Made by a program: the position numbers and the translations under genes. Shown here one piece after another: positions 1,805 through 25,159 of a DNA stretch of 25,159 bases. The notes beneath the pieces are model-generated. The model was not told where the DNA came from. It searched no databases and saw only the letters and a program-made list of their open reading frames with translations. Origin of the DNA: Cochliopodium minus (Eukaryota; Discosea; Himatismenida; Cochliopodiidae); assembly GCA_024220525.1 (NCBI GenBank), contig JAMYWO010000320.1, positions 15,809-40,967 of the forward strand, read 5' to 3'. Every line of letters starts with the position of its first letter. The first letter of the stretch is position 1.

Positions 1805-1860
1805 ATTAAATTTCAAAAAAAAAAAAGAACCCACCCCATTCAATTCATTTTATTCAAATA

Positions 1861-3555
1861 ATGAATATCCAAAAGAAATTATGCAAATTTATAAATGATT
1901 GTGAGGAATGTAATGAAAAACTTGAAAATGCCCACAAAAATGATAGAAAATTTCAAGATTATTTGTTATGCACTGAATGCTCCGAAATAAAGAGGGAATA
2001 TAAAAATTTGGGATTGTTTGTAAATTTGGAGAATTTAAATTTGGATGAAAAGGAAGAATTGAAAATGATTTATCTTTGTTGGAGAGATGATCTTGATTTG
2101 AATGAATTTATCAAAGCATCCCAATCAAATTATTCGATATCAGTAAGAGATAATTATAAAAGAACTCCTCTTCATTATCTTTGTTGGAATAACAATGTAT
2201 CTATCGATTTCTTGAATTATTTTCTCGAGAATAAAGCAAATCTGAACGAAGAGGATATTAATAAAAAAATTCCTCTTCATTATTTCTTACTTAACAACAT
2301 TAAACAGAAAGATTTTGAAGAAATTTTGTATACCTTGGTTGAAAAGAAAACTGATCTCAGTATCCTTGATTCTGATGGAAGAACACCCTTTCATTATCTT
2401 TTTCTTTACCAATCTAAAAAGTTAAACACAAAAGTTTTGAATGTTTTTCTTTCAAACACAAAAGAATCAGACATAAACTTGAAAGATAAATTGAACAACT
2501 CTCCTTTCTCTTATCTTTTTTATCAAGAAGAAAAAAATATTAACATTGAAACAGTCAAATATTTGGTTGAAAACAAAGCAAACATCAACTTGACATTTCA
2601 CAAAAACAAATCTCTTCTTCACCTTTTATCCGGAAAAAATTCTGATGATAATGAAATCTTTCGTTATCTTATTGAGAACAAAGTCGATCCAAATTTGAAA
2701 GATCAAATCGGAAATTATTTTCTTTTCTCTTTCATTGAAAAGTCAAAATTGGATACTTCTTTCCTCAATTTTTTGATAGAAAACAAAATTAATCTTGAAG
2801 TCAAAAATGTCCATTCAACACCACTTGTAACCTATTACAATAATTCATCTCATCAACCCACTGTTTTTGAATTTAAAGTTTTCTTAACTTTACTTGAGAA
2901 CACCAAAACTCCTCTTAACATTTCCCATTTTTTGACTCATCGAAAAGTAAGTGATTTGGATACTAAGATGATTATTAGTATATTTTGCAATGGATTGGTC
3001 GAATTAGAGCTTAAAGTTTATCTCCTTTTTGTTTTTCAAATTTTATTTTTAATCTTATTTTATTTTATTAAACAGGATTGGTGTTTTGAATGCGGATATT
3101 TAACTGAGGTTGATGGTTGTTTTTGCACCCAATGTGGTTCCAGTTTTAGATTGAATGTGATAACTTTTTTTGTTTCTAAATTTTATAATTTTATATTTTA
3201 AAAGTGCAATTGTGTTTATGACCAAAATTGGCTTTGTCAGATATGTTCATTCGAATTACCAAGCTATACATCTTTGGTGAAAATCATTCTTTTTTATTTT
3301 TCTAAAAATTTAATTACAAATAATCGAACAATCAAAACTTTGAAAGAAAAAGGAACGATATGGGAAAAGAAATTTCATGAATTATTTCCTTGTTCATTCA
3401 AGAAGAGAATAGAAAGTTTTGTGATGGGTGTTCATCTTTTCAACAAAACAAATCCTCATCTAAAATTTCCAAAACCAATTGTTTTGATGATCATTCACCA
3501 TTACTCCATCCCTTATTTCTACGAAAAATATAAAAAACAAATATTTGATAGTTAA
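1861..3555 (+). CDS. Ankyrin-repeat protein with zinc ribbons (tandem copy 2)
   Basis: Three-exon model 1861-3015, 3076-3156, 3205-3555, about 528 aa. Same architecture as the upstream copy: N-terminal CxxC/CxxC finger (CEEC..CTEC), ankyrin repeats, zinc ribbon (CFEC..CTQC), a second Cys set (CNC..CQIC) and the tail module ending SIPYFYEKYKKQIFDS. The N-terminus is 11 aa longer than copy 1. The first intron is 60 nt with no in-frame stop, so retention would still be translatable. The third intron of copy 1 has no counterpart here: no ag acceptor lies before the tail module and the frame reads straight through. The ankyrin core and tail are nearly identical to copy 1 at DNA level, while the zinc-ribbon exons and introns have diverged. 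Function is unknown; a protein-binding adaptor is likely. Confidence 0.82.
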
Positions 3556-4084: not shown

Positions 4085-4085
4085 N
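4085..4085. other. Ambiguous base marking a probable assembly gap
   Basis: A single 'n' at the left edge of an ATTTTT array. The minus-strand kinase to its left lacks everything before DFG, and the plus-strand Roco gene to its right starts with a mid-gene exon. Both truncations at one ambiguous base point to a collapsed gap rather than a sequencing miscall. Confidence 0.75.
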
Positions 4086-4283: not shown

Positions 4284-7200
4284 AAATAAAACCACCAAAA
4301 GAAATTTCTTATGAAAATTGGATCATGAGATTTTTCAATGAGGAATACATCGAATTTTGTAAAGAGAACCTTTCTCGGTTGAAACATGAACGAATTTCTT
4401 TTTTGAAAGAAATAATCAACACTGGAGAGAAGAACAAAATCGTTTTGAAAGAAAGTCACCTCACTGAAATCAAAAGAAAGTTGAAAAACAATATTCCTAA
4501 AATTGCAAGTGAAAAAGTACCATTTGGGGAGTTTCTTGGAACCAACATCTATGATTTAAGTGGTAATAACTAATTTTATTTAATTTTATTTAATTTTATT
4601 TAATTTTTTAATTTTTTATTTGATTTTTTTTTTTGTTTTTTTTTTATTTTTTTTTTAAAAAATTTTATTTCACTTTTTTTACTTTTTGCACTTGTTTTTC
4701 TTATTTTCATTTTATTAATTTTATCAAAAAAATTTTTAACAGGAAATGATTTGAGCAATATCCCTCCCCCTCCTCCAATTCTAGAACTTTTGCTTCCAGT
4801 TTTTGAAGAAAATAACAAAAAACAAACAAAACTAAAAATCAGTAATTATTTTTAATCTATTTATTTAAATTTTATTTTTTAACAATAAACTTTTAATTCA
4901 AAAAGAAGAGCAAATTAATGATGATTCGCAAGTATTTTCTCTTGACAAGGATGTTTTTGTAGAAAAAACTGCACTGAGTGTAGAAGAATCTAAAGAGAAA
5001 ATGAAAAGAGATGTTGACAAATACAAAAATTTGAAGAGAAAAACCAACAAAAAACTCAACCTAAGGGTTCCTTTAATTAACAAAATAATGACAGAAATAC
5101 GTTCATTAATTTCGAGTAAAATTATTTTTTTATTTATTTTTTTTAATTTATTATTTTTTATTTTTTTTAAAATTTTTTTTTCAAATAAAATAAAAGCTTT
5201 TTATACATCCACTGTTGCAGAAAAGATAAAGGAAAACATCTTTTGTACAGAGTGTCTCAAACTCAAATTAAACACCAAAATATCACAAAGCCACGTTGTA
5301 GAAAATTTTGTGAAAGATTCTAAAACTATCACTTGTTCCAACAATCATATCCTTGACATTTCTACCATTGCCCCTGATGTAAAAAAAAAAAATTTTTTAT
5401 TATTTTTTTTTCAATTAATTAAAATTTTTTAAATTAAAAGATAACTCTTTCTCATGTCCACGTTTTAAACAATCATATTGTTGTCAAAGAAAAATTGGGG
5501 TTATCAAATGTTTTTTTTATAAATTTTAATGCAAATTTTTTTCTTTATTGTTTTTTTATTTTTAATTTCCGTTCATTTTTTTTCATTTATTTGGTTTGAT
5601 TTTATTTTTAATGTTTTAAATTTAATATTATTTTTTTTGAATATAGTTCTGGAGCTTTTGCGAATGTTTACAAAGGATTGTTGGTGTATGAGTCAAAGTT
5701 TGGGAAGAATGAGATTGTGGTTGCTGTTAAAGAGCTCATATTCCAAGAACAAGAAAGTTCTTCTCTGATCAGTGAAAAATTTCGTCAATTTAATCATGAA
5801 GTTAACCTTTTTAAAAGATATTTTTTATTTCAATTTTTATATTATTATTTCAATTTTTTTTTATTTTATTAAATTTTTTTTTTTTATTTTTATTTTATTA
5901 ATTTTTTTTTATTTTATTAATTTTTTTTTTTTTTTATTTTTTTTTTTATTTTATATTAATTTTATTTTTCATTTAGGTTTCAATGATGAGTCAACTGGTC
6001 AATCCTTACGTAGTAAAGCTTTATGGAATCACAACAACTCCTCAATTAAGAATAGTGATGGAATACTGTCCTTTACCGAATCTGAGAGACCACCTCTCTT
6101 CAGAAAGTTTGCTTTCCTCCTCCCAATATGATTTAGATCTAAAACTCTTGTTTTGTTTGGACATAGCCAAAGCAATAGAATATTTACATTCAATGAAACC
6201 TCCTGTTGTTCATCGGTAAAATAAATAAAAAGAAATTTTTTCATTTTTATTTTTATTTTTATTTTTATTTTCAATTTTTTATTTTTTAGAGATTTAAGGA
6301 GTCCCAATGTAAGTTTTTTATTTTTTATTTTTTTAAATAAAAAAAAAGTTTAAATTCAAAGTTTTATCCAATTAATCAAATTTTTTTTTTTTGAAAACAG
6401 ATTTTTGTGATCAGTTGTGATCCAAATGCGAACATAAGATTGAAAGTAGGTGATTTTGGTCTTGCTCAATCAGGTAAAATAATAACAAAAAAAAAAATAT
6501 TTCATTTGTTTAAATCTCTCCTTTACTTATTGTTCCAATTTTTTTCTTTTTTGTAGTTTCACACGAAATAAAACAAGCATTGGCTACTTTTTGTTGGCTT
6601 CCACCTGAAGTTTTTAATGGAGGAAAATACAACCAAAAATGTGATATATACAGTTTTGGAATTATCATGAGCGAAATTTATACAAGGAGTAATTTTTTAT
6701 TGTTTAAATAAAAAAATTAAATTATTTTTATTTTTATTTTTATTTTCTTTAATTTAGAATACCCTTTCAGTGATTATTCCCAATATTTTGTCGCAAAAGA
6801 AAATATAAAGTATGTTGACATTTGCAGTGTTTGTGGGCCTGATTGCCTCAAAAAAGAAAATTGTAAAATGGAAACCAAAAAAATTGAAGAAACAAACATC
6901 ATTTGGTAAAAAAAAAAAAAAAATTCTTTTCAATTTATAATTTTCTTTAATATTAGGTCGAATTCAGGGTTTGATGTTCAAAATGCAATTACAAACCAAA
7001 AATTGAGACCTAAATTGACAGAAGATGTAAAAAAAAAAAAATTAAATTTTTTTTTTGGTTGTTTAAAAATTATTGTTTTGTTAAACCATTCATAATGAAA
7101 AAGATACCAAAAGAGATAGTTTCTGTTGCTATGAAATGTTGGGACCAAAACCCTAATGAAAGACCTTCTTCCTCTAAAATCGTGGACAAGTTGGTTGATC

Positions 7201-8462
7201 TTTTGGGAGACGAAAACTCCATTAAAGAAAGAAAGAAGAAAAGGGAAATCAAAATGAATAAGTACAAACTTATGTACAACAAAGACGATGAAAATGAAAG
7301 TGACAGCATTTTGAGTGTAAAAAAAATTTTTGTTTTTTTATTTCAAATTTTTATTTTATTTTTATTTTTATTTTTATTTTTATTTAAATTTTAATTTTAA
7401 TTTTTATTGTCAATTTGATTAGACTTCTCCTTTGATCCCAGAATTTCGATTTTATGCTAAACAGATGAAGATGTTGATAGAAGGAAAACAACAGTTACTC
7501 TACCTCAATGGAGGAAATGAAATCAGACTTTATGATTTGACTTCCAACAAACTCATCGACAGTAGCTTTCCTATTTTGTCAGGATGTTCTTCCATAGAAT
7601 TTGTCAACAATGACATTTGGGCCATTAACGAAAACGACAATGTCATTAGAGTTTATTCGAAGAAGAAAAAGGATTTAAAGTTGAAAAAGCAAATGAAAAA
7701 CTCGAAGAACAATCTTTTCATTAACAAAATCTACGAATTTGAAGAAAAAACTTTTTTTAATTTCAAAAAAACTACTTGCAGGGTCTTGGTAGTTGGATTT
7801 GGCAATCATATTAGCTTGTGGGAAAGTTTCAACTTGATAAACTCTAGCTATTCGATTCCTGAGAATCTTGGGAAGATCAATGATGTTCATGTAGGAGAAC
7901 ATGATGTTGTGTCAAAGTACAGCTTCATCTTTTTATCTTTAAAAAATGCAGTTTTAAAACTTAAATGGTAAAAAAAAAAAATTAATTCTGAGAATTTTCT
8001 TTTTTATTTTAATTTCATTTTTATAATTTTTTTTTTTTTTTCTAAAGGTCAAGAGACAATGATAAATTGGAAACAAATCAGATCATCTCTTACGATTCTC
8101 TATCTTTTGATAAGTTTGCTTTTCATGATAGATATATTTTCACATCCGCTCTCAGCAACATCTATGTCTGGGATATCCACAAAAAGAATCTTAAAAAACC
8201 TATATTCAACTTTGTGATTGAGGGACTGGAAATTTCCTTCAAATTATTTCGTGTAATTATTTCAAAAGGAAAATTTTTTCTTTTTGTTGTTTTTAGTAAT
8301 CGAATTGTTGTATTGAAACTGGGTGGCGATTCTTTATCTGTGGTTTCTAATTTGGTTGGTGATTCTGATTTTTTTGATTTAATTCAATTAAATGACGAAG
8401 AAATTATTTGTTCTTGTTCAAATGGTGAAATTTTGAAGATTGATCTGAACAATTTGGATTAA
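4284..8462 (+). CDS. Roco/LRRK-like protein kinase, 3' part: Cys-containing linker, TKL kinase, beta-propeller (5' end lost at the gap)
   Basis: Fifteen exons: 4284-4562, 4743-4841, 4906-5115, 5197-5378, 5441-5499, 5647-5800, 5977-6215, 6290-6308, 6401-6473, 6557-6688, 6758-6905, 6957-7026, 7104-7316, 7423-7967, 8048-8462; about 944 visible residues. The first exon is entered mid-gene in phase. Visible residues about 1-195 are a charged linker with a proline run; about 196-256 carry FCTEC and CSNNHILDISTIAPD, like the Cys/His linker before Roco kinases. The kinase (about 270-600) has the loop LGSGAFANVYKG, VAVKEL, HRDLRSPN, DFGLAQ and CDIYSFGIIM, a TKL signature with all catalytic residues present. 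A Cys cluster (CSVCGPDC..C) lies in the C-lobe. The C-terminus has WD-like blades (EIRLYDL, VIRVYS, HISLWES, IYVWDI), as in LRRK proteins. Roc and COR would lie upstream in the missing part; that placement is inference. The HRD loop sits on a 19-nt exon. Confidence 0.85.
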
Positions 8463-20155: not shown

Positions 20156-23100
20156 ATGTCAAGAACTTCAAGAATTTTTGGTGGCAGCAATGAATCTACA
20201 GAATCTTCAAAGAAAAAAAAATTCAAACAAAAATTTAAAGAGAAAGAATCAAAGAAAAAGATTGAATCATCAAGCGAATCTAGCGAAGATATTAAGGAGT
20301 CCAAACAAGAAATAAGCAATAATATACCACTAATAACAAGAAAAACAAGTATTGGGATGATGGATAGAATTGATTTGAAAACAAGCATGAGTTTGAAGGA
20401 TGTCCCTCAGATATCTGAAAAAGATAGCCAGAAATCGAATATTAATACCCATGATTTGGATGAAATGATCCAAAAGAAAAGGATAGAGAATATAATGAAT
20501 GCAACCAAGATGGAAAAAAATATGACAGAAATTCAAAAGAAGAATATAGCAATGATAAATGAAATAGAAGATTGGAAAAGTGGATCAAGCCTGAAACAAG
20601 TATATCATATTCAATTAAACGATATCTATCCTGCCAACAATTCATTTTTTTTTTAGTTTCTTGGGAAAGATTTTAATCCAATAGTTAATACACCAAGTGG
20701 TACAAACCCTGTTATTGTAGCTGCAGCAAATAATAATACAGAGTGTAAGATATTTTTAAAGTTTTATTTAATTATTATGTTTATTTATGGGAAGGTCTTC
20801 AATTTTTTCTCGACAATGGTGTTTCTTTGAGGGCACAAGATGAATTAGTACAATTTTTTATCAAATAACATTAAATAAATAAATAAAATAAAATAATATT
20901 TATTAGGGAGCCTATACGATACACAGTGCTTCCTATAATAACTGTATTGAAAGTGTAAAGTTTTTGTACGATAAACTTGGACCATCTTGCTTAACGGACA
21001 AAGATTTTTCCGAAAGTAAAATTTTTTTGAATTTTTTTTTAAAATTTAAAACTATATTTAAAAAATAGAAACTTGTTTGGACAATGCGATTAATGCAGGG
21101 AACAAAGAAGTAACAAAATTTCTGCAAGAGAAACTGATTGATTCAATATGGGGAGAAGTAGAAAGAAATAACCCTGAAAAACTAAAAAAGCTATTGGAAT
21201 CCATAGACATTGACTCTTTCGATTACATACAATCTGAAATGCTCGATTTTTCTTGTAAGAAAAAATATGTGGATGTTGTTAATGTTCTTTTCAATTTTGG
21301 TGCTTCTTGTTATTTATCTCACAAGGATTCTCAGGGGTACAATACTTTGGAGTCTCTATTTCTTTCCCAGAAAGACCAAGTAGTTTTGGACCAAGAAACA
21401 ATTTCCTTGATAAAACTTCTCCAAAGTAAAGGAGCAATCGTTTTCATTCACGATAAAGGACACACAATAGAAGATTTTACAGGGAAAAATAATCATTTAA
21501 AAGGTTTAAAAATTAAAATTTCAATTTATTCTCTTTGTTTATTTATTTTATTTTTATTTTATTTTATTTTATTTTATTTTATTTTATTTTATTTTATTTT
21601 ATTTTATTTTTATTTTATTTTTATTTTTATTTTATTTTTTATTTTTATTTTTTAGGGATTCTGCTTGATTCTCCACCAACTCAACTAGATTTGTCAGTCA
21701 ATATTCTTTCTTCTATCAAAGAATTAGATCTTACAAATGCTTCTTTGAAAACAGTTCCCCAATCCATTTCTCTTTTTATCTACTTGGAAAGGCTCTATAT
21801 TGCTGATAACAATTTGGATGTTTTGCCTTCTTTTTTGACAAAGTTGAATCACTTGTATTGGGTTAATTTAGATTGGAATCAGGGAAATGATTTATCCACC
21901 ATTCCTGACGAGATTTTGGGTAAAATTTTTTTTTCAGATTTTTTTATTTATTTAAAATTTTTTTTGTTTTTATTTTTTGTTTATTTTTTTGTTAATTTTT
22001 GTTTATTTTTTAAATTTTTTTTGGTTAAATTTCGTTCTTTTTAATAGATGATTTCAAAAATGGAAAGATAGAATCTTTGAAATCTTATTTAAAACATCTT
22101 GAAGGATCAAAGGAGATATGGAATCAAGTAAAACTTGTGGTTGTTGGAAAGGAAGGTGTAGGGTAAAAAAACAAAGAATTTTTTAATTTTTTGTTTTTTT
22201 ATGTTAAATATTAATAATTTTTAAAAAGGAAAACTCATCTTTTGAAAGCTTTGAAGGGAATCAGAAAGCATGAGAACATATCAACGGATGGGATTAGCAT
22301 TGACAATAACTGGAAAATTCAAAGGATGGAAGGTGAAATTACTATTCGTACTTTCGGTAAGAAATAAGAATCATTTTTTAAAAAATAATTTTTGTTCATT
22401 TTTTTGAAATAAATAAAAAGATTTTGGTGGGCAAGCTGTCTATTGTAAATTTTTTTAAAATTTTTTAAAATTATATCTAAATTAAATTTATTATTTCAAG
22501 ATCCAACCCATCAAGTAATAATTCCTTCAAAAAAAAAAAAAAATTTTATTAACATTTTTAAATAGTTTTTTTTGACAGGAAATTCTATATATTGCATTGT
22601 TTTCAATTTAACAGATCCAAATTACTTTGTAAGAATTAACTATTGGATATCTACCATCAATACAGTCATAAAGGGTTCTCAAAGGCCAAGTGTTTTATTA
22701 ATTGGTTAATTTAGAATAAAAATAATAAAATTAAAAATTAAAGTATATTTTGAAAGGATCTCATCTTGATGTTGTCTTGTTGAAGAAAATAGACTTGAAG
22801 CCAATAGAAAAAAATTTAGAAAAAATCAAAAAGAAAAACAGGCAGATATTGGGTTTTGTTTGCATTTCTTGCATCACAGGTGATGGAATAGAAGAATTGA
22901 AAGAGTATATTCTAGAGGTAAAAAAAAATTTATGAATAAAATATTTTTCATTTTAAATTTTTTTTTTTTAAATTTATTTTTCTTTAAAATTTAGATTGCT
23001 GTAAATAAAAAACTTGTCAATAAAGTAGTACCAAAATATTACAAAGGCATAACAATTTTCTTTTTTTTAAAATAATCATTTTTCCATTTATTTTTTTAAT

Positions 23101-25159
23101 TCATTTATTTTAGATTTGGACACAATCGTTTCTAACATGGGACTCAAAGGAAACAATGCTAAAGAATACATTTCATGGTCGGAATATAAATCAATAACTG
23201 ATAATTTCAAAGTCCCTGAAAACGCCATCATTGTTGCGACAAAATTTCTAAATGATTGTGGAAGTAAAATAAATTCATTTATATCCATTTTTTATTCAAA
23301 TTTAAATTAATTTTTTTGTTTTTTTTTTTTAAAAAGGTTTAATGTGGTTTGGAGATTCAGACATGGTTTCCATTCAGAAGGATTCTCTTGCTGACATTGT
23401 CATCTTCAATCTCCAGTGGTTGGCTGACAGAATGAGCAGCATAATTTCTTACAAGCTTTCTTGGTAAATTAAATAAGAATTATTTTTCGGAAAATTAATT
23501 TTAAATTTTTTTTTTAAAAAAAGTTCATTTTTTTTTTTTTATTTAATAGGCAAAAAGGAATTATTCCTATAAAATCTTTGAGGTCAATTTGGGATGAAAA
23601 ATTTGATCTATCAGTTCAAGAAAAGATAATCAACATTCTAGAGAAATTTGAAATAATATTTTGTTCTTACAAAGCCACTGATTCGGAGGGAATGGAAACC
23701 AAAAAAGGGATAGAAACTTTGGATCATCTTTTGATACCATCTTTATTGCCTGCAAAATCTCCAAAGAGCGAGTATGAAAACGGTATTTTGCCTTTAGACA
23801 AAGAAAGAAAAGATTTGGTTCATCATCAAAGGGAAATCAATTTTCAGTTCATTGCCTTGTTAGAAGAAAACTTTCGAAATTTTTTTTAATTTTCTTTTAT
23901 TTTTTAAAGAGGATTCTTTTCGAGATTGGTTGTAAGATTTTTGAACTCTGGAAATTTCAAAGTTGAAGAATATTGGTTGAATGGTGAAAAAAAAAAAAAG
24001 AAATTTTTTTTTCAAACCTTTTATTTATTTATTATTAAAGGATTGGTTGTTTCTGATGATATCGGAGATAAAGCATTGATACTGTGTGACATCGATCATT
24101 CTCACTCTCAATATTACTTGAAGATTATCTCAGAATATTCCCAAGAAAAGAAGAAAGTACAAATTGATCTTCCTGACATAATCGAGCAAGTTTTGAACAA
24201 CAATGAAGAAGAGGAGCCAGAAAATCAAGAGAAAAAAATTATAGATGAGAGATCCAACAGTAATTCAAATTCTTCTTTGGAAGCAGAAAAGAGCCCAAAA
24301 GAAATAAAGAAAAACGATGATGATGATTCTGATATAGAATATGAAGATTTTGCTTATAAAAATACACTTGGAAAGAAAGAAGCTACCATTGGAAATAATA
24401 ATAAGAAGAAGGGAAGCATTTTTATTGCTAACAAAAAACCCAATAACAACATCAGTTCTGGGATCAATTTAGGTATTTTGGACAATTCTTTTGTGATCAG
24501 CAACGAAATCAAAAAACTTTCTCAAAAACACCACTTGTTGAACAGGCTGAACATAGATTCCATTGCAAGATGTCTCAACACTTTCCAAACTGAGAAAACA
24601 GGAGAACTTTCGTTTAAAGAAGGAGACATCATCCACATCATTTCTCCCGAAAAAATGTTGGCGAGATCTCCTTGTTCAAATGAACTCTTACACTATGACG
24701 AAAGGATGATCCAAACCATTACTGATTCTCCTGAACTTAATTTAACCACCAGTTGGAACTACTTTTCTCCTAAAACATCTAGCTGGCAGAGTTTATCAAG
24801 TTATGCAGACAAAATCGAAAAGAATTTCTGTAAATTTATTGCTAGGGGACATCCCAACACTCTTCTCGTTGGAGAATTTGAAATCAACTTTCAAACAATG
24901 AAAATCTTCAAAAAGTTTTTCTCGGAAAAAAATCAATCTTATCATCTTATCAGAGGAAATCGTGATTTGATATTTACTAGTGGAGATCTTTTGTTTGTTG
25001 CAAAGAAATTGTTGTATCTCATTGATCATTTTGAGGAGGGAGAAAACATGGAGAAAGAAAACAACCTCTCTTCTTCTCAAAAGCTTTCTTATCGACAAAA
25101 AATCTTAAAAATCAGATCCAAACTTTCTCAGGTTGTCAAAGAAATAGAAAAATCCCAAA
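20156..25159 (+). CDS. Roco-family protein, 5' part: ankyrin, LRR, Roc GTPase, COR, SH3-like and WWE-like segments (continues past the window)
   Basis: Eighteen exons: 20156-20599, 20657-20744, 20795-20847, 20907-21015, 21069-21503, 21656-21919, 22048-22162, 22229-22356, 22421-22444, 22501-22514, 22566-22704, 22757-22917, 22995-23046, 23114-23263, 23337-23463, 23550-23858, 23910-23983, 24041 to the edge; about 1268 residues visible. A charged leader (about 1-148) precedes ankyrin repeats (about 149-375) and LRRs (about 377-464; SIKELDLTNASLKTVP, YLERLYIADNNLDVLP). Roc (about 490-650) has GKEGVGKT, STDGISI, DFGGQ, GSHLD and ITGDGIEEL. COR (about 680-930) has DIVIFNLQWLADRM, LLIPSLLP and GFFSRLVVRF. 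An acidic linker (DDDDSDIEYEDF) leads to an SH3-like start (about 1069; ARCLNTFQTEKTGELSFKEG) and a WWE-like segment (about 1132-1203). Roc-COR is the GTP-dependent dimerising switch of the family; a kinase is expected downstream but not seen. The intron after 23046 appears to be GC-AG. Confidence 0.85.
21541..21652 (+). repeat. (ATTTT)n pentanucleotide array inside an intron
   Basis: About a dozen near-perfect ATTTT units followed by ATTTTT-type units, filling most of the 152-nt intron 21504-21655 of the second Roco gene and running into its ttttttag acceptor. It acts as an extreme polypyrimidine tract and is likely to vary in length. Confidence 0.85.

Follow-up and report, generated by a model that had tools for sequence, protein, structure and literature searches.

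A Roco gene of Cochliopodium minus whose SH3-like half-domain and WWE-like segment probably form a cassette inside COR-B

We analyzed a 25,159-nucleotide stretch of the Cochliopodium minus genome (contig JAMYWO010000320.1 of assembly GCA_024220525.1, positions 15,809 to 40,967 of the forward strand), hereafter the window, which ends in a Roco gene truncated by the end of the contig. The best explanation, which we hold to be reasonably probable, is that this gene belongs to a subfamily of Roco GTPase-kinases with a docking cassette inside the COR-B domain, the cassette consisting of an SH3-like half-domain and a diverged WWE-type domain on low-complexity linkers. The evidence consists of a computed gene model, paralogs, profile similarities and a COR-B match that is split in the paralog C126. 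The original prediction, made from the letters alone, had described a Roco protein with SH3-like and then WWE-like motifs on one long exon; exon 18 of our model indeed has an open frame from 24041 up to 25159, where the contig ends, both motifs lie where they had been placed, and their order is common to two paralogs, C137 and C126.

The gene was modeled with hand-placed splice sites as 18 exons running from 20156 to 25159 on the plus strand, giving 1268 codons free of stops. Sixteen of its 17 introns are GT-AG and the remaining one, at 23047-23113, is GC-AG; G+C is 33% in exons and 10% in introns. The window gene fits a Roco protein: a Roc domain with a P-loop (GKEGVGKTH) and a switch II of the DxxGQ type (DFGGQ), both in frame across introns, is followed by COR. 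In the full-length model the ankyrin repeats, Roc and COR-A score above their Pfam cut-offs and the first part of COR-B scores below. The parts of the gene are as follows.

20585..21199, plus strand: ankyrin repeats, spliced, residues ~144-275 (Pfam Ank_2, 5.1e-16, best 144-220; end set by eye)
21703..21879, plus strand: short run of leucine-rich repeats over residues 393-451 (Pfam LRR_14, 0.0073, under its cut-off)
22131..22770, plus strand: Roc GTPase domain, spliced (Pfam Roc, 3.8e-16)
23152..23748, plus strand: COR-A, spliced (Pfam COR-A, 2.8e-18)
23827..24228, plus strand: N-terminal part of COR-B, spliced (positions 5-95 of 145 in Pfam COR-B, 3.3e-4, under its cut-off; 42.3 bits with our own COR-B profile)
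24193..24498, plus strand: acidic and polar low-complexity linker, read directly from the sequence
24499..24726, plus strand: SH3-like half-domain, preceded by a basic stretch, by eye a possible helix
24751..24960, plus strand: WWE-like segment, with W, W, IE, FEINF..M and a terminal R
24961..25159, plus strand: region past the WWE-like segment, its first part alignable in both paralogs (alignment A1), reaching the contig end

The position of the cassette is where the original prediction needs correcting: the exon had been said to follow COR, and the COR-B match is unfinished there and resumes after the cassette in C126. Judged by these matches, the cassette interrupts COR-B rather than following COR. 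A COR-B profile that we built from six other Roco genes of the genome splits on C126, with profile positions 1-79 at residues 1-81 and positions 62-167 at residues 555-668 of a query whose exons were joined by eye with X runs; the two halves thus lie ~470 residues apart, with the cassette between them and the kinase after. Against the Pfam COR-B family (cut-off 27 bits), the window gene scores 20.9 in the full model and 23.3 as a piece, both below, and the C126 piece scores 29, above. A profile of the same six Roco sequences runs through LRRK2 1693-1896 and matches LRRK1 weakly (E 0.02), and the break falls before an LRRK2 stretch that ends, by our count, at L1795; L1795F is among the strongly activating changes in a variant survey (PMC13321175). 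In that preprint COR-B is made up of a PMM-like part and, distal to it, a U-box-like module, so that the cassette may lie at the border of two sub-domains and not within a single fold. Low-complexity inserts occur near this COR-B site in at least two further Rocos of the genome (L020 and L027); insertions are thus tolerated here, and in this subfamily the place is taken by the cassette.

Searching the 44.65 Mb genome with the cassette segment as protein returned C137 (E 4.4e-23, 36% identity) and C126 (E 3.7e-5, 25% identity); in reciprocal searches each of the two retrieved itself and the window copy, and neither retrieved the other. The genome contains at least three cassette copies (window, C137 and C126), a lower bound, and their alignment A1 has 19 invariant columns. 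Both paralogous cassettes adjoin COR-A matches below the family cut-off, and ankyrin, Roc and COR exons are visible by eye at both places in a six-frame reading. The original prediction linked the cassette to a downstream kinase, and this holds for C126, in which a kinase lies downstream of the cassette (PK_Tyr_Ser-Thr, 4.9e-32, exons joined by eye); for the window gene it is not confirmed, the contig ending first, and in C137 an N base is reached before any visible kinase. The only other kinase observed is in a separate 3' Roco fragment elsewhere in the window, described below.

The SH3-like motif reads ARCLNTFQTEKTGELSFKEGDIIHIIS at 24565-24645 in exon 18. Of the families named for checking with the original prediction, SH3 gave a match and, as anticipated, to the N-terminal half: SH3_1 matches the segment above its cut-off (E 2.2e-5 to 3.3e-5), covering positions 6-26 only of the 48-position profile. 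In the six-frame genome search the match stands at 23.3 bits against a cut-off of 22.9, and in the full-length model at 20.1 bits, below it; in the whole-Pfam scan, SH3 families match two of the three cassette copies. Aligned by hhalign with 16 SH3 domains from the same genome, the three-copy profile gives P 6.1e-10 over 30 columns with a score of 47.8, none of 400 column shuffles scoring as high (maximum 17.6), and cross-controls were negative. From these comparisons we conclude that the SH3-like match is real and confined to the N-terminal half (ALYDF...ELSF..GD.i). A PDB search with the three-copy profile of the whole segment returned SH3 proteins, among them, in fifth place, the SH3 domain of FYN-binding protein (2gtj, E 0.0024), which we take to be ADAP; the 2gtj alignment begins at profile position 5 and so takes in the stretch before the SH3 core. 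Chains named Glycoprotein GP1, G1 or GP complex that matched profile columns ~119-185 (E 0.043 and worse) were taken as chance.

The second part of the cassette reads WNYF...SSW...IEKNF...GEFEINFQTMK...HLIRG at 24754-24957 in exon 18; the WWE hallmark residues are W, W, IE in the window copy and C137 and W, M, ID in C126. In a whole-Pfam scan of the window segment, the sole family beside SH3 models is WWE_4 (PF23466; E 0.0076-0.0086, 16.7-16.9 bits, below the cut-off of 24.5). For more sensitive comparisons we assembled a reference set of 30 WWE domains: four from PDB alignments and 26 distinct domains from the same genome, the latter being what remained of 31 places taken from the 35 that match PF02825, the Pfam WWE family, after removal of one with a stop, three exact duplicates and one poor sequence. 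A hidden Markov model built from the set gives the window copy 10.5 bits, C137 7.5 and C126 3.2, against a maximum of 6.4 among 193 decoy segments, which include the C126 cassette itself (outside the top 12) and a same-locus segment at 5.7 bits. By hhalign, the three-copy profile matches eight of the genome's WWE domains with P 1.9e-5 and all 30 with a probability of 90.3, P 1.5e-6 and a score of 32.7; in the controls, 400 column shuffles reach at most 14.6, the reversed profile 11.3, and 200 natural triples at most 19.4, the triples having been drawn from 23 open frames at COR places, strand as stored and some antisense, with the C126 locus L040 excluded. Taken singly (150 shuffles each), the window copy scores 25.9 (shuffle maximum 16.5) and C137 21.6 (15.3). 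Since P 1.5e-6 multiplied by 24736 Pfam families is ~0.04, the evidence for WWE is good and not overwhelming. The original call of a WWE-like segment is supported by profile-to-profile comparison, where the three-copy profile beats all decoys, whereas PF02825 misses the segment and WWE_4 stays below its cut-off; from these comparisons, 24751-24960 is most likely a diverged WWE relative.

A number of results weigh against our interpretation. Of the 35 genome places that PF02825 matches at E <= 1, none is on the window contig. WWE_4 is below threshold, matches only one of the three copies and is unlisted for the full-length model at E <= 0.1; PF23466 run against the six-frame translation of the genome had a single match, which is not in the window. 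C126 alone is weak as a WWE domain, its 3.2 bits being reached by 11 of the 193 decoys and its single-copy hhalign score being 16.3 against a shuffle maximum of 15.5 (150 shuffles). In the PDB, the three-copy WWE profile retrieved no WWE chain at E <= 10, its matches being six S100-A9-type sequences (best E 0.17). The SH3 match ends half-way: the other half, with its Trp pair and G-x-x-P-x-x-Y, is unrecognisable in 24499-24726, and there is no Trp between the SH3 match and 24754. All cassette homologs compared here come from this one genome, and the regulatory step proposed below is extrapolated from LRRK2. Single-sequence AlphaFold models, computed for the window copy only, had a mean predicted local distance difference test score (pLDDT) of 35.4 for 186 residues and 50.8 for 84 residues, too poor to use, and Foldseek with the 84-residue model placed no WWE among the best 50 of 833 matches (best match E 0.1); we treat both as uninformative rather than as evidence against WWE.

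The original prediction also suggested that the protein could read ADP-ribosylation, its WWE domain being functional, with iso-ADP-ribose or poly-ADP-ribose as ligand, and relaying the modification to the kinase. The signal itself probably exists in the cell, since PARP is matched 29 times and the macrodomain 13 times in the genome (E <= 0.01), besides the 35 WWE matches (E <= 1), all counted per exon, and the WWE-like profile match and an aromatic residue two positions past the first Trp, present by eye in the window copy and C126, fit a reader of it. The ligand contacts do not. The Gln that in WWE structures is highly conserved and double-hydrogen-bonds adenine, as stated in the part of PMC11269756 used here, is Ile in the window copy (hhalign register), Ile in C137 and Val in C126 (alignment), against 18 Gln, seven other residues and one gap among the 26 WWE domains of the same genome (18 of the 25 with a residue there). 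The Tyr ahead of the I-D-F strand is, by eye, replaced by F, V and R in the three copies. Because the adenine-binding Gln is I, I and V, ADP-ribose reading by the cassette is unsupported; canonical binding of poly-ADP-ribose is therefore unlikely, and we consider a working ADP-ribose reader improbable.

It is somewhat less improbable, if still doubtful, that the cassette is an ordinary, fast-evolving linker between COR and kinase whose likeness to SH3 and WWE arose by chance, as the PF02825 result, the low identity between paralogs (25-36%) and the inserts of L020 and L027 would allow; the 19 invariant columns speak against it, as does the finding that three-copy profiles beat every decoy in both the SH3 and the WWE tests. 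We find it about as unlikely that the SH3-like part is a helically extended SH3 (hSH3) domain like those of ADAP and PRAM-1, by which the Roco protein would be anchored to acidic membranes. The 2gtj match, aligned together with the stretch before the core, points this way, and hSH3 domains are described as binding acidic lipids and not proline-rich peptides in the portion of PMC8152464 drawn on here. No hSH3 family, however, appears in the Pfam lists of the segment, the score of the SH3 stretch itself in the PDB search was 14.9 bits (i-Evalue 0.14), FYN-binding protein is not among the 29 PDB matches when the window sequence alone is the query, and C126 is without the helix stretch in the aligned part. 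Far less probable than any of these is an assembly chimera that joined a foreign cassette to the Roco gene: the contig terminates in the cassette exon and the window has isolated N bases at 4085 and 10220, but the COR-B part and the cassette share one uninterrupted exon, and C137 and C126 repeat the arrangement.

Returning to a docking cassette within COR-B, we propose that it sits past the sheet part of COR-B and ahead of the C-terminal helix and cysteine-bearing stretch that lead into the kinase. There it would most likely fold and bind a partner or ligand; binding would, through the linkers, shift the COR-B helix by which the Roc-COR switch is coupled to the kinase, and the kinase would then respond both to the GTP state and to occupancy of the cassette. 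The autoinhibitory loop of LRRK1 is an earlier example of a part of COR-B that acts on the kinase, according to the portion of PMC10643122 drawn on here. A bolder version, for which we would claim only a small chance, makes the junction of COR-B and kinase a sensor socket, in which the diverged WWE and SH3-like cassette, placed between the COR-B sheet and coupling helix, would gate the kinase on a non-canonical nucleotide, lipid or protein ligand, with the GTP switch acting besides.

The coupling of GTPase to kinase through COR-B is a central issue in work on LRRK2, the kinase of Parkinson's disease. Roco proteins that naturally have a cassette at this junction would reveal which part of COR-B accepts insertion, and they could supply a naturally ligand-gated LRRK-like kinase. 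No described Roco protein is known to carry a WWE domain, according to the original prediction, and our search of open-access papers likewise found none; the words WWE and SH3 are absent from the main texts of two papers on Roco proteins (PMC6337361 and PMC11378527). As far as this search of open-access papers shows, a WWE-like domain would be newly added to the Roco repertoire; for SH3 in a Roco protein we make no claim of newness.

The remainder of the window and of the genome provided further observations. A second Roco gene of the same subfamily is represented in the window by its 3' part:

4284..8300, plus strand, ends approximate: region following the cassette, C-terminal part of COR-B, and kinase (10.9 bits over positions 59-162 of our COR-B profile; kinase by PK_Tyr_Ser-Thr, 4.9e-32, with exons joined by eye); any cassette of this gene lies outside the assembled part

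The N at 4085 stands before this fragment and divides a minus-strand stretch that by eye resembles a kinase end from the plus-strand Roco tail, and this join may be a scaffold artefact. At 63-1271 and 1810-3201 are tandem ankyrin-repeat frames with long near-identical stretches, probably a recent duplication. The nearest PDB entries to a neighbouring myosin are myosin-2, presumably of Dictyostelium, as would suit an amoeba. Rfam gave no match at its gathering threshold. COR-A is matched at 82 places in the genome at E <= 1, with 21 above the cut-off, which suggests a large Roco family, although some weak places are not Roco. One of these, C110, was considered as a Roco with a WWE domain and rejected: its WWE frame is ~4 kb off among other frames, and its COR-A place is by eye like a mitochondrial calcium uniporter. 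Runs of several WWE matches occur on contigs C156, C105, C63, C114 and C129, two arrays on C156 being identical in two domains, and on C156, C105, C63 and C114 WWE domains with Cys, Leu or Asp in place of the Gln lie beside Gln-bearing ones. On C50, C120 and C167, macrodomain, WWE and PARP matches are consecutive on one strand, an order that we take to be that of PARP14-like proteins.

Compared with known systems, the cassette shares with the WWE domains of RNF146, DTX1, TRIP12, HUWE1 and PARP11 the order W..W..IE..(Y/F)xIDF..M, and differs from them in having no Gln after the Met, in being PF02825-negative and in missing the second Trp in one of three copies. VPS13A and VPS13C likewise have a WWE domain inserted in a large protein, annotated in databases in a minority of cases according to the portion of PMC7613979 drawn on here, in a host protein unrelated to Roco. 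With the hSH3 domains of ADAP and PRAM-1 the cassette has in common an SH3 core, a stretch in front of it and the lack of the usual proline-pocket residues; it differs in that the likeness is one weak match and the helix in the cassette is putative. The Roco proteins of Dictyostelium are also amoeban Roco kinases with many accessory domains, those named in the passages used here being DEP, WD40, RhoGEF and PH. The autoinhibitory COR-B loop of LRRK1 (1048-1082, in the same portion of PMC10643122) is short and by estimate earlier in COR-B; we rejected it as the same insertion, since chain coordinates put it, again by estimate, ~31-65 residues past the start of the match and ahead of the cassette site. 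LRRK2, which our COR-B profile matches end to end over residues 1693-1896, has within that match no long insert between the COR-B sheet and the C-terminal helix, the place that in the C. minus subfamily would be occupied by the cassette.
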